A stretch of 64,000 nucleotides of DNA from an uncultured Bacteroidia bacterium. Its GTDB lineage: Bacteria; Bacteroidota; Bacteroidia; Bacteroidales; Prolixibacteraceae. Position 1 is the first letter of the stretch, and every line of letters begins with the position of its first letter. The notes under the pieces were generated by a model. It was not told where the DNA came from. It saw only the letters and a program-made list of their open reading frames with translations, and searched no databases. Shown piece after piece: positions 8,657 through 35,010 of the stretch. Where the stretch lies: the NCBI GenBank assembly GCA_903897145.1, contig CAIUAN010000040.1, positions 124,001-188,000 of the forward strand, read 5' to 3'. The translations under genes and the position numbers were made by a program.

Positions 8657-9961
8657 ATGTTCGCTAAACTATTTAGTGTGCTGACTTTTTCTATTCTAAT
8701 CTTTCCAGGATTTTCGCAATCGAATGGGAATAAAAACGGCTGCTATATAAATGAGCCGAGATTTAATAGGTCTGGTGAGTTAATACCATTGCAGTCGTAT
8801 GAGCAGACCATTGCTCGTTCAATGAATTTTGTAACGACAAGTGAGAACTGGGTTAAGACCGATTCCCTGACCTTAAGAGATGAAAATGGGTTAAGGCATC
8901 CGGTCTATTTTTTCTATTCCTTCTTCTTAAATGACGATGGCAGTCAGCGTCGAAATAGCTATGTCTCCTATCCTGCATTTCATCACTCGCTGTATATAAA
9001 GGCGTTTATGCGCTATTATCGATTTAGTGGTAAGAAGGAGTTTCTTCAGCGGGCCCTCGATCTGGCAGATTGGAATATGGCACATAGTACCCCGTCAAAT
9101 TATAAATATGGTGGGATGCCTTATAGCACCTGTGCGGCGGGTAAAATGGGTGGCTTTGTTGACGGTCAGGCGATCATGACCGATAAAGCGGCAATCATGG
9201 CTCTTGCCTATCTTGAATTATACCAGTCGACAAAGATCCAGAAGTATCTGGATGCAGCCTTGTTGATCGCTACTAACCTTCTAAAGACACAAAAGCCAGA
9301 AGGTAATTGGTCGTTTCGCGTAGATCCCCAGACCGGAAAAGCAAAAGAAGAATATACAAGTAGCGCCATTTATGCGGTCATGCTCTTTGAGGAGATGGAA
9401 AAACTTTATCCGAAATTAGATTTTAAACAGAGTGGGAGGAGAGCGTTACATTGGATCCTAAATAATCCTGTTAAAACCATGCTCTTTAATGGGTTTTATG
9501 AAGATGTGGGTGCTGATACAACAAACAGAACCAATTGGGACTGTATCGATCTAGCCAAATACTTATTAGCCCATCATCGCGATAATCCTTCCTATTTGAA
9601 AATCGCAACTAAGTTAAATGAGTATATTGAACATACGTTTATTGATAAGCAGCACCAGTATAAACCTGCGGAAGGGATCAAAGAACAACTTCGCTGTTTT
9701 GTTACAATGGGCATTCATAGTGCTCATTGGGCAAGCATGATGGCTAATTTTTATCGCGTCACTGGAGATAAAAGCTATAAGAATAGAGCTGTTCAGACGA
9801 TGAACTTTGTGACCTATCTTCAGCAAGAGAATGGTCGGATCTTAGTGAGCGCCGATCAATATCCTTATTACTGGTATAGCTGCGATATTGGAGTCGATCT
9901 ATTTTTACTTGATTTCTTAGCTGAATTTCCAGAATTTGCCACACCTCAAATACAACAATAA
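8657..9961 (+). CDS. Exported six-hairpin (alpha/alpha toroid) type protein, putative glycosidase or polysaccharide lyase/epimerase-like
   Basis: N-terminal signal peptide (MFAKLFSVLTFSILIFPGFSQS); repeated toroid-like helices (FLQRALDLADWNMAHS, YLDAALLIATNLLKTQKPEGNW); first gene of a 4-gene plus-strand cluster. Confidence 0.5.
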   Translation: MFAKLFSVLTFSILIFPGFSQSNGNKNGCYINEPRFNRSGELIPLQSYEQTIARSMNFVTTSENWVKTDSLTLRDENGLRHPVYFFYSFFLNDDGSQRRNSYVSYPAFHHSLYIKAFMRYYRFSGKKEFLQRALDLADWNMAHSTPSNYKYGGMPYSTCAAGKMGGFVDGQAIMTDKAAIMALAYLELYQSTKIQKYLDAALLIATNLLKTQKPEGNWSFRVDPQTGKAKEEYTSSAIYAVMLFEEMEKLYPKLDFKQSGRRALHWILNNPVKTMLFNGFYEDVGADTTNRTNWDCIDLAKYLLAHHRDNPSYLKIATKLNEYIEHTFIDKQHQYKPAEGIKEQLRCFVTMGIHSAHWASMMANFYRVTGDKSYKNRAVQTMNFVTYLQQENGRILVSADQYPYYWYSCDIGVDLFLLDFLAEFPEFATPQIQQ

Positions 9962-9962
9962 C

Positions 9963-11099
9963 ATGATAAACCTGAAAAATGGCGTCCTATTCTTTCTTAC
10001 GGTTACCCTGATTCTTTGTCTGGGTTTGATCTATACCTTGGAACAGAATCCAACTAAGGACACGAACTATCCTTTCAATGTGAAAAATTTTGGTGCGAAG
10101 GGGGATCATAAAACCGATGATACGAAAGCGATACAAGCAGCGATCAATGCGGCTGTAAGTCATGGCGGTGGTACAGTTTACTTTCCCGATGGCGTCTATC
10201 AGATTGGCGGTCCAGTTATTGATTCGGTGAATCATCAACGTTGCTCTGCACAGCTTTATATCCCAGTAAGTACTTTGGAGCATCCGATTAATATCGTTTT
10301 TAAAGGTGAGACTGCTCCTGAATTTGAGTTGCAAGGCTTAATAAAAACAACCCCTGCAATGAATGGATCAATCCTCTTGTCTACTCTTATAACATCAGAT
10401 TCTACTCAGTTTGTGATCGGAATGGTTCGTGGTCAAGGCAAAAATTGGAGACAGTGGAACTATTCAACTCCTTCCTTTTTTAATCTCGGAATCCGAACAA
10501 GTACGACTAATCTGGGTGATACCGTGCAGGTGCGCAATTCTTTAGGTGGGATAAATCTAGCCTATGCCAGCAAAAGCACTCTAGATAATATCCTAATCAC
10601 AACTCAAAGCCCCTTGGCATCGATCTTAAATCCTACTGGCACGGGCAGCGTAGCTTTGGTGACTCCTAAAGTTGACAATCACGCGCAGATCGACATCGGA
10701 TTAATTCGAATTGGTGGATACGATTATGGAATAAAATTCAGTGAACATTTTGTGGCTCAGGATGTGCAGATTGTCTGCTGTAATATTGGTTTCCTTTCCG
10801 AATTTAGTCACCATAGCAGCTCCGTTCAGACCCTTGAGATTGAATGTGTTCGTTATCCCATTGTTTTTCGGCCCGGACATAACCTGATGGTTGCGAATTA
10901 CAATACGGAACATTTGATGGATAATGTCTGGTACCGATTTGTGCAGGATGTCACCTTTGAAGGTAAAGCCTATTTCCCTGCAAAAATCGTTATTGGCCTT
11001 TGTAATCCAGTGATCTCTAATATTGGATATAACTTTAGTCATTTTAAAACCAACGATTCGTCTAGAGTGGTGCTGTTGGAGAATGCAAAAGTTAATTAG
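9963..11099 (+). CDS. Right-handed beta-helix protein, pectate lyase superfamily-like
   Basis: FNVKNFGAKGDHKTDDTKAIQAAINAAVSHGGGTVYFPDGVY is the N-terminal signature of Pectate_lyase_3/GH28-type beta-helix proteins; N-terminal hydrophobic anchor. Confidence 0.7.
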   Translation: MINLKNGVLFFLTVTLILCLGLIYTLEQNPTKDTNYPFNVKNFGAKGDHKTDDTKAIQAAINAAVSHGGGTVYFPDGVYQIGGPVIDSVNHQRCSAQLYIPVSTLEHPINIVFKGETAPEFELQGLIKTTPAMNGSILLSTLITSDSTQFVIGMVRGQGKNWRQWNYSTPSFFNLGIRTSTTNLGDTVQVRNSLGGINLAYASKSTLDNILITTQSPLASILNPTGTGSVALVTPKVDNHAQIDIGLIRIGGYDYGIKFSEHFVAQDVQIVCCNIGFLSEFSHHSSSVQTLEIECVRYPIVFRPGHNLMVANYNTEHLMDNVWYRFVQDVTFEGKAYFPAKIVIGLCNPVISNIGYNFSHFKTNDSSRVVLLENAKVN

Positions 11100-11138
11100 A
11101 AGTTGAATAGAACTATGAGTTATTTAAAACATAGAATT

Positions 11139-13856
11139 ATGAGCAGAAGCAAGATTTATGGCATCGTACTAGCATTAAGTCTCTTCTTTATACAAGATGC
11201 ATTTAGTCAGAATAGCGTTGATCAAACGGTTCAAACGATTGCGGTAGAGTGGCGCGATGCAGCGCCAAAAGGGACTATTGAGATTTATAATGGTCGACTA
11301 GCAAATATTAAGGTTGTTACAGGAAAAGGGAAAATCCATGGTAATTCATTTGAGTTTAAATCGAAGGGGAGCAGCCGAGTGGAGCTTTCGTTAGCCGATG
11401 TAAATAATCAGGTAGGAAGTGATGCGACGAGGATTACCATCCGAACAGCCACCCATCCTTTTACATTCTTTCTTCGTGATGTTACTTCTCAATACCCGAT
11501 TTCTATCCCTCTCTTTCAGGTTGTGGTTACTGCAGCTCAAGACTCGCGCACCACTGAACAAATAGAAGCTTTTATCAAAGCTCAAGGTTTAAAAAGCAAG
11601 GTTCAGCAGCTGTCCGAACTGCCAGAAGAGAGTTTTGATTCAGCCGCCATTCATACTCGAAACCAATCTTGTCCAACTTGGTTAGGCATCAGTCGTGATA
11701 TCCGTATCTTCGAACTGAACGACAATCGCACCCATCCAGCCAGCGAGATGAATCTCATTAAGCCTCGAAATTCGTCTACCACTATAAAATTGCCAGAGTT
11801 AGATAATAAACCAACTGAGTACGCTTATTTAGTGGGTCGAGGACAAGGGGTTTCCGTGAATGTAACGCGTCGATTAGATGAAGGGGTACTTCCCATATTA
11901 CATTCAACCCTATTGGATGAAGATATTGATTACCATTCAACGATGTTTGTGTCGCTAGAAAGATCACCGTTGAATAATCAAGCTGCTATTGGCACCGATT
12001 ACTTAGTGGCTGATCAGTATAGTGGTGGACACATGCTCACCAAGCAACAGCAAGAGCTGGTAAAGCCTAGAGTGGAAGAAGAAATTAATAAGAGTGAAAC
12101 AACGGTTTTTTATTACCGGTGTGAAGCTATTAACCGCTCGGCAGTGCCGCGTTATGCTTGGTTTAAGACGATCAGACCTGGAGCAGGATGGTGGATCAAA
12201 AATGCCTATTGGTTTGATAATTCGACTGGGTTTTCAGCGTATGCTTCTGATCGAGTATTCGGAATTTCGAAACTAAATGGCCTTCCATTACACGATGAGG
12301 AGATCAGTGTTTTAATTAAACCAGGCGAAAAGGCCATCTTTGAATTTTACGTTCCCCATAGTCCAATCACAAAAGCTCGGGCAGTCCAACTTTCAAGTCA
12401 ATCGTTTGATTCTCGACTTGCTGAATGTAAAACATTTTGGAAAGAGAAGTTAGCTGGAGCAGCACAGATCAGTGTCCCCGAGTCCCGCATCAATGAGATG
12501 ATACAAGCGGGATTATTACACCTTAATTTAATTACCTATGGCAAGGATCCTGCGGGAACGTTGGCTCCTGCTATTGGAGTCTACACACCTATCGGAACTG
12601 AAAGTTCGCCCATTATTCAATTTTATAATTCAATGGGGCTTACTGACGTCGCTAAACGTTCGTTGACCTTCTTCTTGGATAAGCAGCACGATGATGGGAT
12701 GATTCAGAACTTTGGTGGTTATATGGTCGAGACAGGTGCAGCGCTTTGGAGTATGGGCGAATATTTCAGATACACTAAAGATAAACAGTGGGTTCAGAAA
12801 GTCGAACCTCAGCTGTTAAAAGCGACTGAATTCTTGCTTCAATGGCGAGCGAATAATAAGAAGGAGGAACTCAGAGGTAAAGGCTATGGCATGATAGCGG
12901 GCAAAGTTGCCGATCCAGAAGATCCATTTCATCAGTATATGTTAAATGCCTACGCCTATCTTGGTCTTAGCCGAGTTTCGGAGATGCTTAAGGAGGTTGA
13001 CGCTACGCAATCAAATCGTTTGGCACAAGAAGCTCTCGCCTGGAAAAATGACATCCGAACTTCATTGGAAAATAGCATTTCAAATTCCCCTGTTGTTCCA
13101 CTTGGTGATGGAAGTTGGTCCCCCACAGTTCCCCCTTGGACCGAAGCAATTGGTCCCAGAGCCTTGCATATCATCCCAGAGAACTATGTTTCTCATGGCA
13201 CTGTGACGGCTCCTGATGTTCTTCTAGGTCCATTGTATCTCGTTTTTTGCGAGGTTTTGACACCTGAAGATCCAATCTCCAAAATGATGCTTAATTACCA
13301 CAGTGAGCTTTTTTATCAGCGTAATGCAGCATTTAGTCAGCCGTATTATAGTCGTCACAATTGGATGCAGCTTAAACTTGGAATGATAAAGCCATTTCTA
13401 AAAACATACTACAATACTTTTTCTGCTTTAGCTGATCGTGAGACCTACTCTTTTTGGGAGCATCTCTATCAGGTGAGTTCTCATAAAACTCACGAGGAGG
13501 GGTGGTTTTTAATGGAGACACGCTGGATGCTTTACCTTGAAGAGGGACAAACCTTGAACCTACTGCCAGGAGTTCCGCGCCAATGGTTGGAAGATGGAAA
13601 GAAAATCTCCTTAAGTAAGGTGCAAAGTTATTTCGGACCTCTCTCTTTGGACGTAACTTCTCACGTAAATAATGGGTCAATAGAAGCGAACATTACGTGT
13701 AATTCAGCCTCGAAACCTCAAGATGTGCGAATCCGTATTCCTCATCCAGCAGGTAAAAAAGCGATAAAAGTTACCGGAGGAACCTATGATTCGTCAACAG
13801 AATCTGTTTTGATCCAAGGTTTTCAAGGAACAGCAACCGTAAAACTAGAATACTAG
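11139..13856 (+). CDS. Exported large six-hairpin glycosidase-like protein
   Basis: Signal peptide SKIYGIVLALSLFFIQDAFSQ; C-terminal half with toroid-like helices and aromatic/acidic loops (DDGMIQNFGGYMVETGAALWSMGEYFRYTKD), C-terminal beta domain. Confidence 0.5.
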   Translation: MSRSKIYGIVLALSLFFIQDAFSQNSVDQTVQTIAVEWRDAAPKGTIEIYNGRLANIKVVTGKGKIHGNSFEFKSKGSSRVELSLADVNNQVGSDATRITIRTATHPFTFFLRDVTSQYPISIPLFQVVVTAAQDSRTTEQIEAFIKAQGLKSKVQQLSELPEESFDSAAIHTRNQSCPTWLGISRDIRIFELNDNRTHPASEMNLIKPRNSSTTIKLPELDNKPTEYAYLVGRGQGVSVNVTRRLDEGVLPILHSTLLDEDIDYHSTMFVSLERSPLNNQAAIGTDYLVADQYSGGHMLTKQQQELVKPRVEEEINKSETTVFYYRCEAINRSAVPRYAWFKTIRPGAGWWIKNAYWFDNSTGFSAYASDRVFGISKLNGLPLHDEEISVLIKPGEKAIFEFYVPHSPITKARAVQLSSQSFDSRLAECKTFWKEKLAGAAQISVPESRINEMIQAGLLHLNLITYGKDPAGTLAPAIGVYTPIGTESSPIIQFYNSMGLTDVAKRSLTFFLDKQHDDGMIQNFGGYMVETGAALWSMGEYFRYTKDKQWVQKVEPQLLKATEFLLQWRANNKKEELRGKGYGMIAGKVADPEDPFHQYMLNAYAYLGLSRVSEMLKEVDATQSNRLAQEALAWKNDIRTSLENSISNSPVVPLGDGSWSPTVPPWTEAIGPRALHIIPENYVSHGTVTAPDVLLGPLYLVFCEVLTPEDPISKMMLNYHSELFYQRNAAFSQPYYSRHNWMQLKLGMIKPFLKTYYNTFSALADRETYSFWEHLYQVSSHKTHEEGWFLMETRWMLYLEEGQTLNLLPGVPRQWLEDGKKISLSKVQSYFGPLSLDVTSHVNNGSIEANITCNSASKPQDVRIRIPHPAGKKAIKVTGGTYDSSTESVLIQGFQGTATVKLEY

Positions 13857-13860
13857 GACC

Positions 13861-14787
13861 ATGAGAAAGCTACTTGTTGTTGCTGGGATTATCGTTTGTT
13901 TGGGCCTTCACACGTTTGCTCAAATTCGTAAGGCGGATAATTCTGCAGATATCCATTTTGCAATCCAGATCCCCAAACGTCTGATGCATAATTATGCAGT
14001 GGCAAATAGTTCTGTTAAGCAGGCAGCGATTTTTCGTGATCAGGCTATTCTTAAATTGCCCAAGTCTTATACACAGGGAGGTAAGCCAACTCGACTTATC
14101 TACTGTGCTCATGGTGCTGGTGGCGGTGTGACAGCAAAAAATTGGTTTATCAATAATTTTGCAATTGTGGATTCTTTATTGAGCCATGGCTATGCTATTT
14201 TTGATGTCAATGGAGGAGAGTCAATGGAAAATATGGGCGGTCCATTGGTCATTTATTCTGCTTTTCAAGCCTATAAAACCATTCGAAAAAACTATAATAT
14301 TGAACCAAAGATCTTCGTTGTTGGCTTGTCGATGGGAGGTCTCTCGTCGTCGAATTTTTGTCTGCAGCACCCAGCAATTGTCTCAGCTCAAGGTTTGTTT
14401 AGTGCGGTACTCGATTTGAAAGGACAAGCTTGGGATCACCCTTGGTTTCCCACAACTCCCAAAGTCATCTCCACGGTATTTGATTTCACGGATAAGTCAG
14501 GGAAAACTTGGGAGCCAGCTAAGGTAAAAGGATGGAATCCACTTTATGCCAATAGCAGAATTCGGGGTAAGGATACTTTACTTCATTACCCAGTCCCAGT
14601 AGCAATATGGCATGGAACTGGCGATCCAGTTGTTCCTATTTCAGCCTCCCGCACCTTCCAACGCTTCATTCAAAATGGGGGCGGCACCTGTGTGTTGAAT
14701 GAAATCGATTCGTCTGACCATGGACTTAGTTGCGGTAATCCTTTTATGAACCAAGGGTTGGTCACTTTTTTTGATCGAATTAAATAG
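13861..14787 (+). CDS. Exported alpha/beta hydrolase (putative carbohydrate esterase)
   Basis: Signal peptide; nucleophile elbow GLSMGG; IWHGTGDPVVP and SSDHGL supply plausible Asp/His. Confidence 0.7.
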   Translation: MRKLLVVAGIIVCLGLHTFAQIRKADNSADIHFAIQIPKRLMHNYAVANSSVKQAAIFRDQAILKLPKSYTQGGKPTRLIYCAHGAGGGVTAKNWFINNFAIVDSLLSHGYAIFDVNGGESMENMGGPLVIYSAFQAYKTIRKNYNIEPKIFVVGLSMGGLSSSNFCLQHPAIVSAQGLFSAVLDLKGQAWDHPWFPTTPKVISTVFDFTDKSGKTWEPAKVKGWNPLYANSRIRGKDTLLHYPVPVAIWHGTGDPVVPISASRTFQRFIQNGGGTCVLNEIDSSDHGLSCGNPFMNQGLVTFFDRIK

Positions 14788-14797
14788 CTGTTCCTTC

Positions 14798-16891
14798 TTA
14801 TTCGCAACTCACTAACCTGATCTGCCAAGGCCCCACCTCTGGGATCGTGAATTTTTGATAAACTCCGTCAGCACCTGATGAGGTTATCGTTGTTTCCTTG
14901 CACTGCATATCGTATAGCTTTATCGTCTTATTCGCAGTTCGTAACTTCAATATCACATTCTTGGCTTCATCAAAAGAGGCGTTTGTAAAGGCGAGAGCTA
15001 TTTTACCTTGATTCGGCTCGCGGATCCAAAGGTTGATCCGATGAAAAGATTCAATATATCCGGGGAGTGTTTGGTTGGATAGCCAGCGAAAGATCGATTT
15101 CATCTGGGTGCTTTTCGACTTGTTTTCCATAAATGTCCAAGGGTAGTAGCCTGCAATAAATATCCGTCCTCCTAACTTATTTTCAAAAGTCCCGGAGGTG
15201 CATGGGGAGACTTCGTCCCCTGAATAGTCAATAAGTGAACTGATGATTTGCGCCTTCGTATTATTTGGCTTTAGCGTGAAGGCCTCTGACTTCCAAAACG
15301 ATTGTCTATTGTCTCGTGAGGCTCCAGCAAAGCTGCCATTGAGAGGGTGGTTGGTGAAATGCTCAATCCGGTCGACCTTATCCGATTTTACCACTTCAAA
15401 TCCGGTGAGTTCACCATATCCTAAACGATTCAGTTGTGCTAAAGCTTCTGCATCCATATAAACGCCACCTGAAAGAATTTGTCTAACCTCATCCTTCGAT
15501 AAGGTTAGGATATTATCTTTTCCTAGAATAGTCACTTTCGCATTCTTCCCAGAATAGAAGGTAGGTAGTCCGATATTGTATAGGTCGTGGCTTACCAATG
15601 GGTTTCCTGAGCTAAGCCAGTTCCCTTGATCGATATTCCCCGTGGCAAAACTATTTTTATTCCAGAAGGTTTCGATGCCCGTTAAGTCCGTTCTTCCTAA
15701 CTTCTGAACCATCAGATTAAAGAAAGGCCTGGCCTCTTGGAGTTTTGCTAATAGGGGTTCATACTCATCTAATGGCTCATCGTAAAAAGATAACACATTA
15801 AAGGCGGCTCCAGTGCAACCGGCTGCAATGTGTGAACAGGCCTCCAGTACCACCATATTCGCTGCTTTTTTCAGTCTTTGGTAGGGAAAGTTTTCGATCT
15901 CCGACTCAATTGAAACAACCTCTTTCGGCAAGACCGATACTTGACGTCCGACATCGTGCGATTTTCCAACAAGTTCTGCGGTCAGATTATCGGTGTAATA
16001 ACCTCCACCTGGTCGCCACATCACTGGAATATGATTTGGTCCAGCTAAAATTCTGGCCCAATTCTCAAAATCATACCCTTCATAAAATCGATCGCCAGTC
16101 ATAAAGCCTAGCGACATTTTGGGTTGAATCGTATGAACTGTTTTCTCAATTAAGGTAAAAAGGTTGGAGATCGTATTCCGATTATGCTGCAGCCAAGCTA
16201 GTCTGACCTTCAGTTTATCTTCGACTGATCCTTCATTTATCGCACTCTTGAGTTTTTCACGCGTATAGCTCACTCCTGATTCTTTTTCAAAAATTTGCAG
16301 ACAGTTATCGCAAAAACATCCAAGGCCAATGGGCATATGACCAAACCTTACATCATCATCGATCCAGATATAGTCAGGATTTGCTTCGGCTGAAAGCTGA
16401 TAAATGGTTTGCACATACTCGCGCAGGTGTTCTCCATTGGGACAGAAGGAGCCGTTACAAATCTGACCATCAATATTGGTCATATTGACATAATCACCAT
16501 TTAGTGAATTGTCTAGATTCTCGTTGTGATGCCCTATCGAGGAGAGGATATTAATCCCTGCTTTATAGCCCCGTTTCTTGGCTTTAGCTATCCGAATCTT
16601 TAAAATAGACGCTCTCTCTTTGAAAACTTTGATTGGCAGAGGGGGATGGGTGGCTGAAGTAAAAAATGTTATTTCATCGGTTACCCCTTTGTATTTATCG
16701 AACAGATTAAAGACCTCGGTGCATCGTTTTTCTGAAGCCCAAAGCGGAACACCAATTCGGAAGGAGATATTCGCTTTATTAATTATTGGCACGTTCGCTT
16801 CAGCTGTGCCCTTGTCGGGAACGGCTTTTAAAACAAGTGAACTAAAAAATAATATCAGAACAAAAACGATGGTTGTGCTAAATCTGTTCAT
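14798..16891 (-). CDS. Exported putative TIM-barrel glycoside hydrolase-like protein of uncertain family
   Basis: Signal peptide; PDYIWIDDDVRFGHMPIGLGCFCDNCLQIFEKESG resembles hypothetical beta-galactosidase-like barrels; C-terminal domain beta-rich. Confidence 0.4.
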   Translation of the reverse strand: MNRFSTTIVFVLILFFSSLVLKAVPDKGTAEANVPIINKANISFRIGVPLWASEKRCTEVFNLFDKYKGVTDEITFFTSATHPPLPIKVFKERASILKIRIAKAKKRGYKAGINILSSIGHHNENLDNSLNGDYVNMTNIDGQICNGSFCPNGEHLREYVQTIYQLSAEANPDYIWIDDDVRFGHMPIGLGCFCDNCLQIFEKESGVSYTREKLKSAINEGSVEDKLKVRLAWLQHNRNTISNLFTLIEKTVHTIQPKMSLGFMTGDRFYEGYDFENWARILAGPNHIPVMWRPGGGYYTDNLTAELVGKSHDVGRQVSVLPKEVVSIESEIENFPYQRLKKAANMVVLEACSHIAAGCTGAAFNVLSFYDEPLDEYEPLLAKLQEARPFFNLMVQKLGRTDLTGIETFWNKNSFATGNIDQGNWLSSGNPLVSHDLYNIGLPTFYSGKNAKVTILGKDNILTLSKDEVRQILSGGVYMDAEALAQLNRLGYGELTGFEVVKSDKVDRIEHFTNHPLNGSFAGASRDNRQSFWKSEAFTLKPNNTKAQIISSLIDYSGDEVSPCTSGTFENKLGGRIFIAGYYPWTFMENKSKSTQMKSIFRWLSNQTLPGYIESFHRINLWIREPNQGKIALAFTNASFDEAKNVILKLRTANKTIKLYDMQCKETTITSSGADGVYQKFTIPEVGPWQIRLVSCE

Positions 16892-17001
16892 AGGTGGTTC
16901 GATTTGTAAAATTGCATGCGATTATAACGCGAAGAAACGCATGTGAGCTAGGAGCTGTCTGCATTTCTTCGCGTTGTGAATTGATCGTCTAAATGACTAA
17001 C

Positions 17002-19147: not shown

Positions 19148-19156
19148 CAATTTTGA

Positions 19157-21841: not shown

Positions 21842-21844
21842 CCT

Positions 21845-22798: not shown

Positions 22799-22817
22799 CC
22801 TATCTTGTTCTTAGATT

Positions 22818-25021: not shown

Positions 25022-25057
25022 CTATACCTTATGATCGAGGAGGATCATAAGGTATAG
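25022..25057. promoter_or_regulatory. Perfect 15-bp inverted repeat, 6-nt loop, between NagB-like gene and GH36 gene
   Basis: CTATACCTTATGATC-GAGGAG-GATCATAAGGTATAG; no T-tract on the minus (coding) strand. Confidence 0.75.
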
Positions 25058-25116: not shown

Positions 25117-26049
25117 TTAGTGCATCTCTGTTTCGCAAGCTCCAATGCCGCCCACGAAATAGTTGAATTGTACATTAGGATGATCGGCTAATAGCGACAT
25201 CGGAACAGAGCTGTCTCTAATTTTCTTGCTGATCATCAGTGCTGTTAGTCTTTGTCCAAAAGGGTTGTCGTGAGCTCCAGCTTGCCAGATCGATACTTTC
25301 TCTGCTTTCCAGGTCTGCACGGGTCCAACAGTTAAGGCTTGTCTTGGAATCCCGGTAACCACACCTCCCGCACTTGTCCGTGCGTTTTGCATGCAGGTAA
25401 TTGGATGCAAATCCACTACACGAGTAGTCAGCTTGCCAAATTCTTCCGGTGTTGGAGGAGCATCTTTATAGATCCCTTCGCGTTTTACTGGGTCATTAAA
25501 TGCCCAATGTTTGGTATCTCCTTGTCCGCCTTGCATCACTGCACAGCGAATGCCACTATCCCAGCTATTGATATATTTGCTGGTCTCGGCTTTCGGGAAA
25601 TGCATATTAGCATCTGGCATTCGATATCGAGGATCGATTTTATTAAAACACAACTCTCTGTCGGCTCGTTCGAAAGATAATGGATGACTAGCATCTAACT
25701 CTTTGCCATCGACATACCACTCATCCATACCCCAGAAATGGGCATTCGAAAGATCAAGCTGTAATTCATTAACCATTCGAGCGACTAAAGGTAACTGTTC
25801 TGTAGGGCCAATTGGACCACATATCCCAATGGGATTGCTGGCTGTAGCTTGTTTCCAAGCGGTGATATATTCAAGCGCTTCGGCAAGGTAAAAATCTTCT
25901 AAGGTATCGTAGAAAACCACTTTAAACCCTGGTCTTGAAAGCTGTAAGATATCTTTGGGTGTGAGCTTGGCGGCATCTCTCAATAAATCATCCTCAAGAG
26001 TGGTGAAATCCCACCAGTCGGGCGCTAACATGCTTAATTTTCTGGCCAT
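25117..26049 (-). CDS. Divergent glucosamine-6-phosphate deaminase/isomerase (NagB-like)
   Basis: [11 protein letters not shown] (NagB MDEY block), [14 protein letters not shown] (cf. GxGxDGHIAFNEP), IPRQALTVG. Confidence 0.75.
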
Positions 26050-26078: not shown

Positions 26079-26831
26079 TTATTTTAGAACGACCTTGCTT
26101 CCAAGTAACTCTTTTAGAATGTTATCCTGTGGATAGCTATGGCCAAGGTGCTGTCTAAAACCTTCTGCATAGTTTGTCTTAATTTCTTGACCCCGATGTG
26201 CAGCAAATTCCTTCATCGCTACAATATATTGGTCCATCTTGTGATGTTTGCGCAACCATTCCCGCTGACTGGCATGACAAGCTAGGGTATCTTCTTTAAT
26301 TTGAATCTCATCTGTTATATCAACATAAATAGATGGATTGATACCCTTTCCAAATTTATCTTTCCCTTCCAATGGATCGACATAATATAGATGAGGAACC
26401 ATCTCAAAAGGTGTTCCTGAGGCCTCCATGTTTTTTATCCCAGCGGCAAAACAGGCTGTCTGAACCACCAAGCTAGTTAGCTCATGATCGATCATGTAGT
26501 CATTTGGACTTGCTGTAAAAACAATACTTGGACGAACTTTGCGAATAACCTCAACGGCTTTGTTGATGGTCTCACGATCATAGGCGATATACACATCATC
26601 GCATTCCAGACAGTGGTACTCCCCGTCAAGAAGTGCTGCTGCTTGAGCTGCCTCATTTTTTCTGATTGCACTAATCTCTGCTCGCGTATGTTCTGCAGAA
26701 CCTTTGTCGCCCGGAGTCATGGTTGCGATGTGTATTTTCCAGCCAGCCTTTTTTAAAAGCGAAAGAGTGCCTACACACATCAATTCTGCATCGTCAGGAT
26801 GCGAAAAAATTCCTAATGCTATTTTGTCCAT
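26079..26831 (-). CDS. PIG-L/LmbE family deacetylase
   Basis: GIFSHPDDAELMCVGTL (HPDD zinc motif) and NDYMIDHELTSLVV. Confidence 0.9.
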   Translation of the reverse strand: MDKIALGIFSHPDDAELMCVGTLSLLKKAGWKIHIATMTPGDKGSAEHTRAEISAIRKNEAAQAAALLDGEYHCLECDDVYIAYDRETINKAVEVIRKVRPSIVFTASPNDYMIDHELTSLVVQTACFAAGIKNMEASGTPFEMVPHLYYVDPLEGKDKFGKGINPSIYVDITDEIQIKEDTLACHASQREWLRKHHKMDQYIVAMKEFAAHRGQEIKTNYAEGFRQHLGHSYPQDNILKELLGSKVVLK

Positions 26832-26912
26832 TTTTATAGTGGTTTTAGTTCTTAGTTTAATGTTTAAGTATGCTGCATTGAAATAAAGATACTGCTTTTT
26901 AGTTCGCCTCTC

Positions 26913-27701
26913 TTATTTGATAGAAGTTAGGCTAACCTGTTTAAAAAAGATCTCTGCACCTTCCGATTGTATTTGAATACGCCCTCTTTGCGGCGTTACA
27001 TTCGTGGCATGATTCACTAATTTGCCATTTAGGTAAATAGTAATCTCATGCCCTTTGGCAACTACACGGAGTTTATTCCACTTCCCGATAGGTTTTTCAA
27101 GATCATTGGCACCTCGAAAGCCTTTGTCATCTTTCCATAAAGGATCGCGTCCATACCAGTTGATTCGACCACTGTTAATCGTGGCAGGCTCACCATTGGG
27201 ATTGAAGATATACGATTTATCTTGCATCTCTTTCTCGACCGGACAGGTTAACGAGAACTTCGTAGACCCATCACCGACTGCCAGCATATCTCCCGTTCCA
27301 CCTTCAATAAGTTGACATTCTATTGAATACATCCAGATGCCAGAGAAGGCTCCGTCAGCACCAGTCGAATGAAGTAAGATGCCGCTGTCGCGCGCATTTT
27401 TTTCACGCGGAGGATAGGTTAATGCTCCCCATTTATACTCAACTTCAAGCTGGTAATTTTCAAATGCTTCATTGGTGGTGATGCAGCCAAAATCCTCTCC
27501 TGAGATTCTGATCTGACCTTTCTGAACCGTAAATACATGATTCGGATCGATGTTTTTTCCTTTCCCTCGAAGGTAGGTATACCAGCCAGTTAAATCTTTC
27601 CCATTGAAAAGTTGATTTTGCGACTGCTGCGCAAGAACATCCTCGTTGAAGATTCCCCATGAAAGTACAATCAGGATAAGACTCAGTAATCTGTTTTTCA
27701 T
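26913..27701 (-). CDS. DUF1080 (3-keto-disaccharide hydrolase type) exported protein
   Basis: QLFNGKDLTGWYTYLRG start, GILLHSTG, GKWNKLRVVAKGHEITIYLNGKLVNHATNV; signal peptide. Confidence 0.85.
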   Translation of the reverse strand: MKNRLLSLILIVLSWGIFNEDVLAQQSQNQLFNGKDLTGWYTYLRGKGKNIDPNHVFTVQKGQIRISGEDFGCITTNEAFENYQLEVEYKWGALTYPPREKNARDSGILLHSTGADGAFSGIWMYSIECQLIEGGTGDMLAVGDGSTKFSLTCPVEKEMQDKSYIFNPNGEPATINSGRINWYGRDPLWKDDKGFRGANDLEKPIGKWNKLRVVAKGHEITIYLNGKLVNHATNVTPQRGRIQIQSEGAEIFFKQVSLTSIK

Positions 27702-27719
27702 TTGGGTTCTATCTTTTGG

Positions 27720-28730
27720 TTACTTGGTTTCAGCTGATTTATCGGCTTCGAAAATCAACTTGTGTGTTTTCAACGCTTCTGCTAAATTTGTTAATGGCAT
27801 CTCTTTGCCTTCCTCGAGAGCTTTAAAGAAAGCCTCAAACTGAGCCTGATATGGGTGATCTGATACATCACCAGAATCCAACATTTTCATTGGGATCTCG
27901 GTCCACTTGTTTTTGTCGAGCCCTGCTGTTTTCGTTGAATAATATTTATTATCCAATAAGCTTCCTTCGCTTCCCACTAAGTGGAAATGAAAATAATACG
28001 GCTGCAGACAGTCGATCACTGATGCCACTTTCCCAACCGCTCCATTTTTAAATTTGACAATGGATACAGAACTAGTTGGATATTCGTAGGGCTTAAAATC
28101 TTTGTTTTCAGAATAGGAAGCATAGCTACTAACTTCTTCAAACTCGCTTCCCATGCAGAGTAAAAGGGCATCCATGGCATGGCATCCTGCTGACAATAGA
28201 CTACTTCCTGCTGCTGCTTTGATGGTGTTCCAACGATACTGTCCATACCATGGTCCAATACCATGAAAATAATCAACCTCCCCATAATGAATCGTACCCA
28301 GAAGTCCCTGCTCGATCACTGATTTTATAGTTAGCAACTGATTTGAGAACCGACATTCAAAGCAGACACATGAAAATACCCCTGCAGCTTTTACCGCTGC
28401 TTCCACCGCTAAACACTCTTCCCAGGTTAATGCAATGGGCTTTTCAATGATCAGATGTTTGCCTGCCTTTGCTGCTTGAATAGCTTGCTTGGCATGGTCG
28501 GCAGGATAGCTGCAAATTGAGACTGCATGAATTGTTGGATCAGCAAGCATCTTCGAAAGATCGTTATGACACTGGATTGATCCACCGTGTTTGGCACTTA
28601 GTGTTGATGGGTCCAATATTCGAGAAGAGCACACTGCCGTAACTTGAGCGTATGGCGTTTTATTGATCGCTTCAATGTGAGCCTCTGCAGCCCAGCTATA
28701 ACCGATAATCCCAACATTATATTTCTTCAT
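27720..28730 (-). CDS. Gfo/Idh/MocA family oxidoreductase
   Basis: N-terminal Rossmann GIIGYSWAAEAHIEAI; GKHLIIEKPIALTWEEC (EKP motif). Confidence 0.92.
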   Translation of the reverse strand: MKKYNVGIIGYSWAAEAHIEAINKTPYAQVTAVCSSRILDPSTLSAKHGGSIQCHNDLSKMLADPTIHAVSICSYPADHAKQAIQAAKAGKHLIIEKPIALTWEECLAVEAAVKAAGVFSCVCFECRFSNQLLTIKSVIEQGLLGTIHYGEVDYFHGIGPWYGQYRWNTIKAAAGSSLLSAGCHAMDALLLCMGSEFEEVSSYASYSENKDFKPYEYPTSSVSIVKFKNGAVGKVASVIDCLQPYYFHFHLVGSEGSLLDNKYYSTKTAGLDKNKWTEIPMKMLDSGDVSDHPYQAQFEAFFKALEEGKEMPLTNLAEALKTHKLIFEADKSAETK

Positions 28731-28766
28731 GGTTAAGCTTTAATTAGTTAGACTATAAACTTAAGT

Positions 28767-30158
28767 TTAAATTTTTACAATTCCGAACGTGTCGGCACCA
28801 TCGGAGCTCCCTTCAAAGAGATATGGATCGCCCATACCAGATTTTGCATATTGATCGAAGACTCGTTTTACAACTGCCGAAGCGCTCTTCTCAGCAAGGA
28901 TAGCGACTGTTCCTCCAGCACCACCACCTGTGATTTTTGCTCCGTAGATGCCATTTTTTGCTCCCTCTTGGCGGAATAATTCAACAATATAATCGGTCGC
29001 TTTAGCCCCTAATCCACATTCGGTGTAGGCATAATGCGATTGATACATCAGTTCTCCCATCAGCTTAAATGCTCGTTTGGTAGGAGCCAAAGAGGCACCT
29101 CGTGAAAGCTCAGAAAAAAGCTGAACGCGATAATTCTCTTCTACCGCATAACGCGTATTGGCCCGCACATGATAGACCACACCCTCTTTAAGTGGGGTAT
29201 AAGGATCGACATGAAGGTTATGCTTCGACAGATATTCGGTGCTACTTAGATTAATTGGGAGTTGATTCTCATATTTTTCATGAAATACGGAAGCCGAGAG
29301 ATTGGCTAAATAGCCGTTCCAGTTCTCATCAGTATAGCGCTCTATGTCATTTCCTTCTTCTAATTTGACCTCTATTTTTTCTAAATCACAGATCATTTTA
29401 TAGCCCATAAAGGCGGCTGCACGTGCTGCTTCATATTCAATTCCTGAGACTTGGTGACTGACCCCCGAGTCGATGCCCCAGATCTGCAGATCAGCTGGTA
29501 ATTGAATAAGAGGTTCAGGCAGACAAGGCTGACAGACCAGCGGAAGGATGAACCCCTCTTTCCCCGCTACTACGGCAATTTGATCCATAATGCCACATGC
29601 CGAATCGGCAATAACATTTTCAACCCATTGACAAGCCAGTGCTAACTCAACACCTTCAAGCGGAATGTTGTAGACTGAGGCTGCAGCTTTCATAACCGCG
29701 ACTTCAATAGCGGCAGAAGAGCTTACCCCTCTATTTAGCGGAACAGTAGATTCCATATAGACACTAATGCCTAGCTTGGCATGTGCTGGAAATTTCTTTT
29801 TAAGATAAAAAAATGTTCCGAGGACATAAGCTGTCCAGCGGATAGACGGAGAGCTATTGACAAAGGTTTTTACCGTTTCTTCATCACGAAGATCGGCATA
29901 CGGAATAGTCAAATCACCTTGCCAGCCAGCCTCGGAGGCTGTTTGATTCTTGAGAACAATAAGCTCATCTGTTCGAAGTTGAGCTGCTGCCCAAGTTGAT
30001 TCACGAATAGTTGATTCAAAGACTAAACCTCCGGTATAATCGTCGTTGCCTCCCATAAGATCAAGTCTTCCAGGGGATCGAGCGATTGAGACCGTTGCCG
30101 AAGGGTCGAAAAAACCATCGGCTTTGATTAATGTTTTAACCTTGTCTATAAATTCCAT
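28767..30158 (-). CDS. GHMP-family sugar 1-kinase, galactokinase/L-arabinokinase-like
   Basis: SPGRLDLMGGNDDYTGGLVFE, LNRGVSSSAAIEVAV (GHMP ATP motif), YGAKITGGGAGGTVAIL; C-terminal FEGSSDGADTFGIVKI. Confidence 0.85.
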   Translation of the reverse strand: MEFIDKVKTLIKADGFFDPSATVSIARSPGRLDLMGGNDDYTGGLVFESTIRESTWAAAQLRTDELIVLKNQTASEAGWQGDLTIPYADLRDEETVKTFVNSSPSIRWTAYVLGTFFYLKKKFPAHAKLGISVYMESTVPLNRGVSSSAAIEVAVMKAAASVYNIPLEGVELALACQWVENVIADSACGIMDQIAVVAGKEGFILPLVCQPCLPEPLIQLPADLQIWGIDSGVSHQVSGIEYEAARAAAFMGYKMICDLEKIEVKLEEGNDIERYTDENWNGYLANLSASVFHEKYENQLPINLSSTEYLSKHNLHVDPYTPLKEGVVYHVRANTRYAVEENYRVQLFSELSRGASLAPTKRAFKLMGELMYQSHYAYTECGLGAKATDYIVELFRQEGAKNGIYGAKITGGGAGGTVAILAEKSASAVVKRVFDQYAKSGMGDPYLFEGSSDGADTFGIVKI

Positions 30159-30167
30159 CTTCTCGTT

Positions 30168-31358
30168 TTATTTCCGAATCTCTTGAATACTTTTCACTAA
30201 ATATTCTAATGCTTCCTCTGTCTGTCTAGGATTAATAGGCAGGGTAACAAGCTGATCCCCTAATTTCTCCGCATTTGGAAACTGACCTTTTTTAAATCCT
30301 CGGTTTTTAAAGGCCGTAGAATAATGTAATGGGATATAATGGAACCCAATCTTGATTCCAAATTTATGAAGCATATCGTAGATAAAATCTTCTTTGGTCA
30401 TGCCGAACTCTTTCGCGTCAATCATCACGGGATAGAGATGAAAGACATGCTTGTTGTGCTCTTTTACAGCGGGTAACGTTAAACCAGGGACCCCGGCTAA
30501 TCCTTGAGTAATATAAGCGGCGTTGTCGATGCGATTTTGGTTGAGCTGATCTAATTTCTTGAGTTGCTCTATACCTACCGCTGCTTGGATATCGGTCATT
30601 CTGAAGTTATAGCCACAGTCGTCGAAATCTTGCCACCAGAATTTTTTCCCAATCGGGAATTTCTCAGCATCTAGGGTGCAGTATTTAGTACTTGCGCCAT
30701 GTACGCGGGTGCAATGTGAGCGGTATAGGGAGATTCGTTCGAAGATCTCATCGTCATTGGTTAAAACGATCCCGCCTTCACCGAGTGTTGAGATATTTTT
30801 TTGTTCGTGAAAGCTGAAACATCCAGTGGCTCCAATGGTGCCTACCTTTTTCCCTTTGTATTCTGCTCCAATAGCATGTGCTGCATCTTCAACTACGGCA
30901 AAGTTATGCTTCGTCGAAAGAGCCATAATCTCATCCATGTCGCATGGTTGGCCATAGAGATGAACAGGAATAACGGCTTTTGTGTTGGCTGTTAATTTAT
31001 CCTCAATTTGATTTGGATCTAGGTTGTGGGTGATGGGATCAATATCGACAAAGTCGACTTCTGCACCTAAGGTTACAGGTGCCGCCGCAGTTGCAATCCA
31101 GGTTACTGGTGTTGTTAGAACACGATCACCTGGCTTAAGACCAATTCCAATCATGGATAGAAAAAGGGCAGATGTTCCGTTGTTGACTACCCTTGCATGT
31201 TTTGCTCCAGAATATTTAGCGAAATTATTCTCAAAGGCGATACACTCATCTCCGCTTGTGGGAGCGTTGTTGCGTAATACTTTGAGTACCGCTTCTTCTT
31301 CCTCTTTCCCATACTGCGACCCGAATTTTATCTCTAGATCGAATTTGATTTTACTCAT
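30168..31358 (-). CDS. DegT/DnrJ/EryC1/StrS family PLP aminotransferase
   Basis: AKHARVVNNGTSALFLSM, VVEDAAHAIGAEYKGKKVGTIGATGCFSFHEQKNISTLGEGG (PLP-lysine region). Confidence 0.93.
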   Translation of the reverse strand: MSKIKFDLEIKFGSQYGKEEEEAVLKVLRNNAPTSGDECIAFENNFAKYSGAKHARVVNNGTSALFLSMIGIGLKPGDRVLTTPVTWIATAAAPVTLGAEVDFVDIDPITHNLDPNQIEDKLTANTKAVIPVHLYGQPCDMDEIMALSTKHNFAVVEDAAHAIGAEYKGKKVGTIGATGCFSFHEQKNISTLGEGGIVLTNDDEIFERISLYRSHCTRVHGASTKYCTLDAEKFPIGKKFWWQDFDDCGYNFRMTDIQAAVGIEQLKKLDQLNQNRIDNAAYITQGLAGVPGLTLPAVKEHNKHVFHLYPVMIDAKEFGMTKEDFIYDMLHKFGIKIGFHYIPLHYSTAFKNRGFKKGQFPNAEKLGDQLVTLPINPRQTEEALEYLVKSIQEIRK

Positions 31359-31363
31359 GATTG

Positions 31364-32257
31364 TTATTTTTTTGCGTTGAAATTAAGTGTCAAGTTTAAC
31401 CCTTCTGCTAAGGTAAGCATGGGAGTTTTTAAAATTCTTTTTGCTAAGGAGTTGTCCATTGAAGCATCTTCTGCCCGTGGCGCACGGCCTGGCATCGCAT
31501 TTGAATTGGTGCTTAAAATTAATTCGGAGGAGTATCCTAGTGCTTTGGCAATGACCAATCCCATTTCGTATCGATTGATTTTTGTTGATCCTCCGAGATG
31601 CATAATACCCCCAAATTGATTGCCTGCAAGCTCAATGAGTGCAGCTCCTAAGGTTATCACATCGATTGGAGTGCGTATTTCGTTTTCTGGAAATGGAACT
31701 TTAATCCCTTGCTCTAACTTTGATATGGTGTCGGCAAGAAAAGAGTTGCCTTTTCCGATAACTGGAATCCCCATCACCAGAGCTAGTCTGCCTACTACAT
31801 TTTTTGGAGAGGCAGATAGTACGATCTCTTCAGCTCTGATTTTTGTCTGAGCATAATAGTTGATCCCATTCGGCTTGTCTGATTCGATATAATCACCTTT
31901 GAGACCATCAAAAATTGTATCGGTTGAACAGAAAACCATTTTTACGTCATGCTCTTGGCAGGCTATCGCGATCATTTTAGTTACTTCAACATTGGTCTGC
32001 TCTGCTTGCTCTTGGTTGGCTTGACAAATATCGATATTCGCCATTGCTGCAGCATGGATAACCGCGTCGGGGGCTATCTCCTTGAAGAGGGCATTAAAAC
32101 TTTCCGAATCTTTAAGGTCAAGAGAGTGGTAATAAATGCCAGGTTCATCAATCGGATTTTCTGTCCGTCCAATACCATGAATTTCCCAGTCCCCTTTCGC
32201 TTGAGCAATAATACTGCCTGCCACAAATCCATTAAAACCGGTGATTAATAATTTCAT
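31364..32257 (-). CDS. NAD(P)-dependent SDR, RmlD-like sugar reductase/epimerase
   Basis: MKLLITGFNGFVAG nucleotide-binding motif; STDTIFDG; YYAQTKIRAEE (YxxxK). Confidence 0.85.
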   Translation of the reverse strand: MKLLITGFNGFVAGSIIAQAKGDWEIHGIGRTENPIDEPGIYYHSLDLKDSESFNALFKEIAPDAVIHAAAMANIDICQANQEQAEQTNVEVTKMIAIACQEHDVKMVFCSTDTIFDGLKGDYIESDKPNGINYYAQTKIRAEEIVLSASPKNVVGRLALVMGIPVIGKGNSFLADTISKLEQGIKVPFPENEIRTPIDVITLGAALIELAGNQFGGIMHLGGSTKINRYEMGLVIAKALGYSSELILSTNSNAMPGRAPRAEDASMDNSLAKRILKTPMLTLAEGLNLTLNFNAKK

Positions 32258-32279
32258 TTGTAATCTGTTTTTAAGTCAT

Positions 32280-33782
32280 TTATTCTATTTCCTTCCCTCC
32301 GAAATCCGTCTGAAGAAGGTTAATTATTCTTTTCTGAAGCTCTTTACCTGTTTGTTTATCACTGCTTGAAATATAACTGCGAACAACACCTTTTTCATTG
32401 GTTGCGGTTCGCACGTAGGCTGCATACCAATTGTCGTCTATGCTAATGCGAGCTGATTGTTTCCTAATCCCTTTGTAAATAAAGGTCCCTTCGAGGTCGT
32501 CGCCATTCTCAGAATGTGTGGTTAACTCAGCTTGATCGTCTTTAAATAATTTTAGTACCGCATTCATAGCCTTGTCACGAATGTCGTTATTCACAAATTC
32601 AAAGTTAAACTCCCCACTAGTAAAAATCTGATCTTGCATTCCTCGAATATCGTTGATGCAATTTTTATCTTGATAAACTGATTTAAGAAATAACAGTATG
32701 GTATAGAGTGAGTTTTCCCCAGAAACCAACATCTTCTCAAGAGGGAGTTGATGGTAAAAATGACCAGACTCTTCAGCTCCAGCTAAAGCATTCGTCTGCT
32801 TCATAAAAGCTTTGATTTGTGAATGTCCATTGCGAAATAAAATCGGGTCAGCATTTGCTTCCGCCCATTTAAGGAGCGCCAGTGGATTTACTTTAGGGTC
32901 ATAGAGCACTTTTGATACAGCGGCATTCCCTGAAGTTATTGATCTCAAGATTGGGATCATCACAAATCCAGCACTAAATACCCCTTTTTGATCGCCGAAA
33001 ACGATGCGATCGCCATCTCCGTCGATGCCGATTATTAGGTCTGTATTGTGCTGCTTTGCTAAATCAATAGCATGATCCATCTTATGCTGACTAGTTGGAT
33101 TTGGTGATCCGGTAGGGAACTCTCCATTTGGAGTTAGTCGATATGCGGTCACTTTTACCCCAGCTAAAGTTAAAGCACGATATAATTCAGGTCCTGCTGA
33201 GCCGTTAAACGTGTCCAGGATTATGGATATACCCTTAAGTGAGTCTTCTGTAACAGAGGCTAATTGAAACGTGTAGTTGATGTATTCGTCGACGGGATTT
33301 TCTAAAATTGTTAGCGATCCTCCAGCTGATTTATTTAGTTTAAAGTCTGACTGATGATAGAGCTCTTTGACCTTTTTCAACCCACCTAGTGGACCGCAGT
33401 CGTAGCCAATGGCTTCAACGGTTGGCACCGTATATTTGATCCCTACATACTGTTTTGGGTTATGCGATGCGGTAATGGTTAAGCCCATTGTATTGGGGTA
33501 ATGCACACTTGTTTGCATGGTGGCAAAATAGCTCAAAGGAGTGCTAATCGGATCGAAGCAGACAAAGATTCTAAATCCGGATTCTAACGCAACTTTTATC
33601 CCAATCTCTAGCACACGAGCACATCCCAGTCGGGTATCTCGAGCCATCACCAAGGTGTCTATTCCAAGCATTTTAGCATACCCAAGAGACGCCTCAAATA
33701 GGCGTTGTACCTCTTGGTCGTTAAATTCATCGACCTCCCATCGAGCATCGTAAACTTTTATGGGATCTTTGGAGGAAGTCAT
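32280..33782 (-). CDS. Phosphomannomutase/phosphoglucomutase family phosphohexomutase
   Basis: LTITASHNPKQYVGIK (phosphoserine loop), IGIDGDGDRIVFGD (metal loop), AGAEESGHFYH (sugar loop). Confidence 0.92.
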   Translation of the reverse strand: MTSSKDPIKVYDARWEVDEFNDQEVQRLFEASLGYAKMLGIDTLVMARDTRLGCARVLEIGIKVALESGFRIFVCFDPISTPLSYFATMQTSVHYPNTMGLTITASHNPKQYVGIKYTVPTVEAIGYDCGPLGGLKKVKELYHQSDFKLNKSAGGSLTILENPVDEYINYTFQLASVTEDSLKGISIILDTFNGSAGPELYRALTLAGVKVTAYRLTPNGEFPTGSPNPTSQHKMDHAIDLAKQHNTDLIIGIDGDGDRIVFGDQKGVFSAGFVMIPILRSITSGNAAVSKVLYDPKVNPLALLKWAEANADPILFRNGHSQIKAFMKQTNALAGAEESGHFYHQLPLEKMLVSGENSLYTILLFLKSVYQDKNCINDIRGMQDQIFTSGEFNFEFVNNDIRDKAMNAVLKLFKDDQAELTTHSENGDDLEGTFIYKGIRKQSARISIDDNWYAAYVRTATNEKGVVRSYISSSDKQTGKELQKRIINLLQTDFGGKEIE

Positions 33783-33819
33783 TTTTTCTTGTTGGTTGAA
33801 AACTAATTAACAATTAATC

Positions 33820-35010
33820 TTAGGCTTTACTTCTCTGTAATAACGGTATCCTAGTGAAGAAAAAGGCATAAATTGTAACCATGACGATGCAGACCATTGG
33901 AATAATATACGAGATTTGAACACCATGCTGATCGGCGATCATTCCTTGGATAGGAGGGAGGATTGATCCTCCTATGAATGCAAAATTTAGCAATGCAGAA
34001 CCTTTGCCGGTAAAAGAGCCAATGTCTTCAATTGCCAGACTAAAGATTGTTGGAAACATAATGGATAGGAATAGTCCAAGTCCAGCCAATAAATATTCAT
34101 TATAGCCTGTATTTGTATGAATGATGACCATAAACAGGGCGATCATTCCAAGGCCAAAGAATCCCAATAATTTGTGTGCATTGAAATATTTTAGGAGCAC
34201 AACGCCTAGGATTCCCATCACTGCCGTGAAGATATAGTAGAGCGTAAGATAGCTTGCAGCCGTTGTGTCGGTATATCCAAGGACTGATTTAAGGTATGGG
34301 ATAAAGAATCCACAGGTGGACGCTTCGGCGCCCATATAAAAGAACATGGCAAAGACACCAAAGAAAAGATGTTTATGAGAATATCCTTCAGCAAAAATTC
34401 CCTTTAACGAAAACTGGTCATCCTCTTCTGCTTTCATGGCTGGGAGTTTAGAAAGCGCAAATAAGAGAGCGATCATTATTAGTATACCCGCAAGTAATAG
34501 GTAAGGAAAATGAAATTGAATTTCTCCTAGGCTATTGTAAATTAATGCTGTCGCTACTGTAGGTGTGAAGGCATATCCGACTCTAGAAAAAACTTGAACG
34601 AAGTTGATACGCTGATGAGCTCCTTCAGGATCGCCAAGCATTGAAGCAAACGGATTCGCCGCAACATTGATAATTGTTAGTCCTGTTGAGATAATGAAAA
34701 TGGCCGTTAATACCAGAGCATACGAATTAAATAATTTTGCAGGCCAGAAAAATGCAGCACCTAAAGCACAGGTAATCAGAGCTACTAACAGACTCACTTT
34801 GTAGCCATGGCGATGGATCATCCATGCAATTGGAATTGGGAAGATGATATAAGTGAGGTAAAAAGTAAACTGAATCATCGTTGCCTGAGTATAATTTAGC
34901 TTAAACTCAGTAATTAAGGATGGCAACAAAATGTCGTTCATGCAGAACAGCGCTCCGACCATGAAGAACATCAATGATAACAACATCAGTGGTTTATAGT
35001 GGTGTTTCAT
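33820..35010 (-). CDS. MFS sugar transporter, FucP/FHS-like
   Basis: About 12 TM; GLTIINVAANPFASMLGDPEGAHQRINFVQVF typical of the fucose/glucose:H+ symporter group. Confidence 0.85.
   Translation of the reverse strand: MKHHYKPLMLLSLMFFMVGALFCMNDILLPSLITEFKLNYTQATMIQFTFYLTYIIFPIPIAWMIHRHGYKVSLLVALITCALGAAFFWPAKLFNSYALVLTAIFIISTGLTIINVAANPFASMLGDPEGAHQRINFVQVFSRVGYAFTPTVATALIYNSLGEIQFHFPYLLLAGILIMIALLFALSKLPAMKAEEDDQFSLKGIFAEGYSHKHLFFGVFAMFFYMGAEASTCGFFIPYLKSVLGYTDTTAASYLTLYYIFTAVMGILGVVLLKYFNAHKLLGFFGLGMIALFMVIIHTNTGYNEYLLAGLGLFLSIMFPTIFSLAIEDIGSFTGKGSALLNFAFIGGSILPPIQGMIADQHGVQISYIIPMVCIVMVTIYAFFFTRIPLLQRSKA

Follow-up and report, generated by a model that had tools for sequence, protein, structure and literature searches.

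Several described systems resemble, each in part, a nine-gene run of sugar enzymes in the DNA analyzed here, a 64-kb piece (64,000 nucleotides, hereafter the window) of the 2.8-Mb assembly of an uncultured Bacteroidota bacterium, whose nearest named relatives are metagenome-assembled genomes (MAGs) of lake Bacteroidia. The run centers on three genes, which we call the core, encoding an RmlD-like short-chain dehydrogenase/reductase (SDR), a DegT-family aminotransferase, and a galactokinase-like GHMP kinase. These genes are conserved and co-occur, keep their catalytic residues intact, and have no detected linked nucleotidyltransferase. The core probably feeds an unusual sugar, most likely one bearing an amino group, into metabolism.

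Galactokinase, GalNAc kinase, and AbGHMP (9ulx) have the same fold, ATP motif, and catalytic Arg/Asp as the GHMP kinase, which places it among the galactokinase-type anomeric kinases, but the window protein is longer, at 463 amino acids (aa), and has Gly-Asn in place of the C6-reading Glu and His. The PseB-PseC, ArnA-ArnB, and WecE systems share with the core the pairing of an SDR with a DegT protein, here closest to PseC and ArnB; however, the core has a sugar 1-kinase and a sugar transporter and no dehydratase or nucleotidyltransferase. In the NtdABC kanosamine pathway, a DegT enzyme works with a dehydrogenase and a HAD protein on sugar phosphates, a combination that the core would share, but NtdC is Gfo-type whereas the partner in the core is RmlD-type, and the core has a kinase and an importer. 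The Gfo/Idh/MocA (Gfo) and DUF1080 genes behind the core resemble the 3-keto-disaccharide pathway (BT2157 3-ketotrehalose hydrolase; Caulobacter CCNA_01705, PMC9007349), DUF1080 proteins having been discussed as 3-keto-glycoside hydrolases (PMC9007349), but this pair is an add-on in the window's genus and not part of the core in other phyla. Bacteroides-type polysaccharide utilization loci likewise have exported glycosidases near a sugar transporter; in contrast, the region studied here has no SusC/SusD pair, by which such loci are defined, and no hybrid two-component system, extracytoplasmic function, or AraC regulator. The enzyme families are all known, so that a sugar salvage route would be built from known families, and we found no description of the combination. 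Our search of the open-access literature returned no paper on AbGHMP or on GHMP with DegT and RmlD, and none on amino-sugar catabolism with DegT or on the catabolism of kanosamine or perosamine.

Enzymes of the core

The core genes in the window are as follows.

31364..32257 (-), RmlD-like SDR reductase (RmlD_sub_bind, 168 bits)
30168..31358 (-), DegT/PseC/ArnB-like pyridoxal phosphate (PLP) aminotransferase (DegT, 378 bits)
28767..30158 (-), galactokinase-like GHMP kinase, 463 aa (GHMP_N/C and GalKase_gal_bdg)

The nearest solved structure to the kinase is AbGHMP (365 bits), and its AlphaFold2 model (pLDDT 86.5) has galactokinases and GalNAc kinase as best fold matches. Arg31 and the catalytic Asp192 are kept in practically all orthologues. 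The galactokinase motif GEHTDY is replaced by GGN(D/V)DY in all 57 aligned rows, its Glu being Gly in every orthologue and the next His being Asn (Gly37-Asn38). In galactokinase structures this Glu binds the C6 hydroxyl, and plant L-arabinokinase and Fkp are likewise without it. Loss of the C6-binding residue suggests that the substrate is a sugar lacking a C6 group or carrying a different one. The protein stays below the cut-off of the true-galactokinase equivalog (123 versus 227 bits), the genome encodes another galactokinase, with GEHTDY intact, elsewhere (C18), and the window operon holds no GalT or GalE, the Leloir partners of such a kinase.

The PLP-binding Lys187 and Asp158 of the DegT protein are invariant across 63 aligned rows (Lys187 in 100%), and judged by this Lys the protein is an aminotransferase and not a dehydratase. 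It falls short of the PseC (342 versus 423 bits) and ArnB (254 versus 631 bits) equivalog cut-offs, and both phylogenetic types of the protein, A and B, have their top scores on the PseC, ArnB, and WecE/RffA models, all C4 aminotransferases. Tyr135 and Lys139 of the RmlD-like protein are invariant in practically all aligned sequences, with a score of 147 bits on the dTDP-4-dehydrorhamnose reductase equivalog (cut-off, 224). A canonical RmlD is encoded separately in the same genome (C30:66086, 321 bits), which led us to reject the window protein as the dTDP-rhamnose enzyme of this organism.

Distribution and evolution of the core

A scan of the genomes of 84,980 species returned 51 loci. RmlD, DegT, and GHMP are adjacent in Bacteroidota, Acidobacteriota, Planctomycetota, Armatimonadota (Chthonomonadaceae), and Verrucomicrobiota, and counting Hydrogenedentota, where it is split over two loci, the core is present in at least six phyla. 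Hydrogenedentota and Limisphaerales genomes carry two separate loci, one with DegT-RmlD and often an OPA-type MFS transporter, the other with GHMP and often an EamA protein. DegT adjoins GHMP in 26 of 27 Bacteroidota loci, the exception being cut by a contig end. All nine checked genomes without a called DegT-GHMP neighborhood still have a DegT orthologue, on the GHMP contig in three (L059, L064, and L068) and elsewhere in five, with the GHMP contig cut in the remaining one (L061). The transporters are exchanged: an FHS protein in Bacteroidota, where it is the first gene of the cassette in loci that have upstream sequence; EamA, which scores on metabolite exporter models, in most others and in Flavihumibacter (L043); and the OPA-type MFS beside DegT in Hydrogenedentota.

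A phmmer search with the three nucleotidyltransferases of the host genome (RmlA, ManC-like, and a third type), all unlinked to the core, found none of these types in the core loci. Since the core recurs across phyla without any nucleotidyltransferase detected beside it, the case against ordinary nucleoside diphosphate (NDP)-sugar synthesis or the Leloir pathway is strengthened, in agreement with the first-pass annotation of this DNA, which had seen that the gene set fits neither. In Dyadobacter, GHMP adjoins a HAD protein whose best score is on glucose-1-phosphatase; Flavihumibacter and one acidobacterium have homologues of this protein next to GHMP. In other lineages, the core has DeoR, LacI, GntR, or AraC regulators and exported hydrolases beside it, and also, by eye, TonB-dependent-receptor-like proteins. 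The missing local regulator that the annotation remarked on is thus no general trait of the system.

Among 101 relatives, GHMP is found in 13 genomes, all of which also have DegT; the only further genome with DegT is G012, where the DegT-RmlD pair reaches the contig end at which GHMP would lie. The hypergeometric probability of this co-occurrence is p = 2e-15, a value that takes no account of shared ancestry. Across the phylum, the kinase is rare (1/396). In a Hydrogenedentota sample, the 3 genomes with GHMP (besides one 42% paralogue) also carry DegT, which occurs in 10 of 20, so we reject a strict dependence of DegT on GHMP; the dependence is one-way. The DegT and RmlD trees split identically, with 100/100 support, into types A and B, separating Bacteroidota, Hydrogenedentota, and Verrucomicrobiota from Acidobacteriota, Planctomycetota, and Armatimonadota. 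In the GHMP tree, unlike the other two, Verrucomicrobia group with Acidobacteria. Thus, the DegT-RmlD pair has been exchanged as a unit.

Some Hydrogenedentota genes deserve separate mention. Type-A DegT genes at L117:8601-9809 and L113:3697-4959 lie in genomes without GHMP, with no RmlD detected alongside, and in genome G726 a PMM homologue (31-33% identity) adjoins RmlD-DegT (L119:4926-6479 and 6440-8648), GHMP being on another contig.

The nine-gene run in the window

In the window, the core is embedded in the run FHS-PMM-RmlD-DegT-GHMP-Gfo-DUF1080-PIGL-NagB-like, spanning 35010-25117 on the minus strand. Its features outside the core are listed below.

33820..35010 (-), FHS-family MFS sugar transporter, fucP/gluP-like (MFS_1, 92 bits)
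32280..33782 (-), phosphohexomutase-family enzyme PMM/PGM (PGM_PMM I/II/III; TASHNP and DGDGDR motifs in the translation)
27720..28730 (-), Gfo/Idh/MocA oxidoreductase, a genus-level extension (GFO_IDH_MocA match)
26913..27701 (-), DUF1080 or 3-keto-disaccharide hydrolase-like protein (3keto-disac_hyd, 108 bits), with a signal-peptide-like N terminus by eye
26079..26831 (-), PIG-L deacetylase, BshB1-like (PIG-L, 91 bits), conserved in the genus
25117..26049 (-), NagB-like protein, a distant NagB homologue with an altered active-site motif
25022-25057 (-), hairpin with a perfect 15-bp stem, a probable terminator

From FHS to the NagB-like gene, the intergenic gaps are 37, 22, 5, 9, 36, 18, 81, and 29 bp and are followed by a 241-bp gap before a GH36 gene, within which the hairpin lies. 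Because of this tight spacing and the hairpin-bearing gap, we take the nine genes to be one operon. Promoter scans gave matches no better than chance.

The same order, with DUF1080 and NagB-like not always present, is found again in further species of this genus, the proteins being 59-94% identical. All nine genes are kept in order in a different species (L032/G006, 68-92% identity), and the order is partly kept in L030, L031, L034, L054, and L074; in G014 (L103), an insertion of about 15 kb carrying other genes separates DUF1080 from PIGL. The intracellular genes form a genuine conserved unit rather than a chance adjacency, and the gene order that the first-pass annotation had proposed for comparison holds up within the genus. 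PMM occurs in 13 Bacteroidota loci, Gfo follows GHMP in eight loci of the genus (81-99% identity), and DUF1080 follows Gfo in several.

The best model for the FHS protein is fucP (219 bits; cut-off, 280), then gluP (192), and the PIG-L protein reaches 119 bits on thiol_BshB1 (cut-off, 182). The NagB-like protein scores 31.6 bits on the NagB equivalog (cut-off, 237), and its motif differs from that of Escherichia coli NagB, GGVGNDGHIAFNEP, by Asp141 to Thr and Glu148 to Asp. As it has neither of these two canonical active-site acids, the name glucosamine-6-phosphate deaminase is not warranted. An orthologue 89% identical sits at the same position in L032, but we rejected the protein as a widespread enzyme, since it is present in 1 of 247 genomes of the class. 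Upstream of FHS, at 35153-35977 (-), sits a 274-aa protein with a signal-peptide-like N terminus and no Pfam family; members of its family precede FHS in four other loci of the genus as well (L026, L031, L032, and L074), and it may belong to the surroundings of the operon.

A proposed salvage route and its alternatives

Our tentative reading is that the core is a catabolic salvage route for a 4-amino-4-deoxy sugar, acting at the level of the sugar-1-phosphate rather than the nucleotide sugar; this sugar would probably lack the C6 hydroxyl or be substituted there. It would enter through the FHS transporter (replaced in other phyla by EamA or an OPA-type MFS) and be phosphorylated at the anomeric C1 by the GHMP kinase. 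The PseC/ArnB-like DegT enzyme would then transfer the 4-amino group to 2-oxoglutarate, leaving a 4-keto sugar-1-phosphate that the RmlD-like SDR would reduce to the 4-hydroxy form. The product may leave through the PMM-family mutase in loci that have one or, in Dyadobacter, Flavihumibacter, and one acidobacterium, through the glucose-1-phosphatase-like HAD. In the window's genus, Gfo with DUF1080 and PIG-L with the NagB-like protein probably handle the sugar when it comes as a glycoside or in N-acyl form. The substrate, direction, step order, C4 position, and chemistry of each step we infer from enzyme family: C4 is favored because both DegT types score best on C4 aminotransferases, and catabolism is supported by the regulators and exported hydrolases that flank the core in lineages outside the window's clade. 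Of the salvage of an acetylated or amino-substituted glycan sugar proposed by the first-pass annotation, the amino-sugar part remains the best reading, while its self-contained 26-kb scope is not supported.

Several points weigh against this route. No enzyme of the core has a characterized close homologue, and the DegT and RmlD enzymes characterized so far act mostly on nucleotide sugars. The mutase requires a C5/C6 hydroxyl, in conflict with a 6-deoxy hexose, and thus counts against such a substrate, except if the mutase itself uses a pentose phosphate or some other product. The Dyadobacter and Flavihumibacter cassettes sit among housekeeping genes with no hydrolases, 4-amino sugars are not known as abundant compounds of lakes and soils, and the excess of DegT over GHMP in Hydrogenedentota implies that the DegT-RmlD pair can function in the absence of this kinase.

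These last genomes also suit a biosynthetic salvage, in which an imported sugar is phosphorylated at C1, activated by an unlinked nucleotidyltransferase, and then converted through amination by DegT and reduction by RmlD into an NDP-amino sugar destined for a glycan of the cell itself, much as Bacteroides Fkp handles fucose. NDP-sugars are the normal substrates of DegT and RmlD enzymes, the DegT protein has PseC as its best model, and the genome encodes three nucleotidyltransferases at a distance. We nevertheless consider this rather unlikely: no nucleotidyltransferase was detected in the core loci, we noticed no core-associated glycosyltransferase, a mutase or sugar-1-phosphatase often adjoins the core, and catabolic-type regulators and exported hydrolases flank it. 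Amination in the manner of NtdABC would instead have the SDR (or Gfo) oxidize a sugar-1-phosphate, DegT aminate it, and HAD dephosphorylate it, yielding a free amino sugar that EamA might export. The structures 4k2b and 4k2i of NtdA, which as a DegT enzyme acts on a sugar phosphate, are among the matches, a HAD phosphatase adjoins the kinase in some lineages, and the exporter scores of EamA fit. But the FHS family consists of importers, RmlD-type enzymes act as reductases, PMM and the hydrolases indicate consumption, and we saw no genes for resistance, synthetases, or dedicated export traveling with the core, so that we hold this explanation to be improbable. That conserved sugar enzymes simply came to lie together in one clade, with no common pathway, is very improbable. 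The accessory carbohydrate-active enzymes (CAZymes) do vary between lineages and the six-hairpin protein SH1 (below) moves independently, but the three core genes stand side by side in at least five phyla, occur together even where they are apart, and have their DegT-RmlD pair swapped as a unit. This contradicts chance adjacency for the triad, while for GH36-GH95-SASA and the plus-strand cluster it is possible.

On the most far-reaching reading, the core might represent an undescribed form of amino-sugar catabolism in at least six phyla, a swappable module in which transamination followed by reduction strips a ring amino group from the sugar-1-phosphate, with "biosynthetic" DegT and RmlD run degradatively; we regard this as possible but somewhat doubtful. 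If true, DegT and RmlD proteins usually annotated as nucleotide-sugar or lipopolysaccharide biosynthesis would form a widespread catabolic route, "PseC" or "RmlD" annotations outside glycan loci would need re-reading, and the recovery of ring-amino sugars by environmental Bacteroidota, Acidobacteriota, and Hydrogenedentota would be explained. The cultured carriers Dyadobacter frigoris and Flavihumibacter profundi make the pathway directly testable.

Exported enzymes around the operon

The operon is part of a 26-kb region of 18 genes in two convergent runs, 8648-14787 (+) and 14798-35010 (-). All 18 are genuine open reading frames; the positions and families annotated at first pass stand, with the first start at 8648 rather than 8657, and Pfam and NCBIfam confirm the families except for three proteins (917, 697, and 317 aa) that match no Pfam family. 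As had been noted, none of the 18 genes encodes SusC, SusD, or a regulator by Pfam/NCBIfam. The genome holds only two SusD genes, both outside the region, and their absence here is therefore as much a trait of the organism as of the locus. The other genes form the following groups.

19157..24875 (-), run of GH36-like (Melibiase), 317-aa propeller-like, and GH95/DUF5703-like genes, with gaps of 19 and 3 bp
14798..18954 (-), sialate O-acetylesterase (SASA) and 697-aa orphan protein, marked off by gaps of 202 and 110 bp
8648..14787 (+), convergent run of the (alpha/alpha)6-barrel protein SH1, a beta-helix protein, the 917-aa protein, and an alpha/beta hydrolase

The two minus-strand groups would be neighbors lying outside the operon. 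SH1 and the beta-helix gene are paired in G002, a genome (82% complete) without the GHMP/DegT core, and also in G005 and G014, where the core lies on another contig. This separability means that the 26 kb comprises at least two independent units and, with the separate runs and the hairpin, speaks against the single self-contained system first proposed. The exported enzymes can hardly be counted as part of the system either, as the CAZymes beside the core vary by lineage (GH36, GH92, GH123-like, GH78 with DUF4838, and none in Dyadobacter).

A six-hairpin profile built from 12 core-bearing loci outside Bacteroidota matches SH1 at 184 bits. We rejected SH1 as a member of the system, however, the link being weak: within the genus it occurs without the core (G002) and on other contigs, five core-bearing genomes have no close orthologue of it, and its weaker paralogues are many. 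Its structure model (pLDDT 73) shows a generic (alpha/alpha)6 barrel only, like those of AGE epimerases, GH76, and GH105, and a PDB profile search gave superfamily-level matches only. Two large, exported-looking proteins without a Pfam family are the 697-aa orphan at 14798-16891 (-) and the 917-aa protein at 11103-13856 (+), the latter with a weak oligosaccharide amylase-like match only. The GH95 gene carries DUF5703_N (Pfam), and the propeller and GH95 genes also follow the operon in L032.

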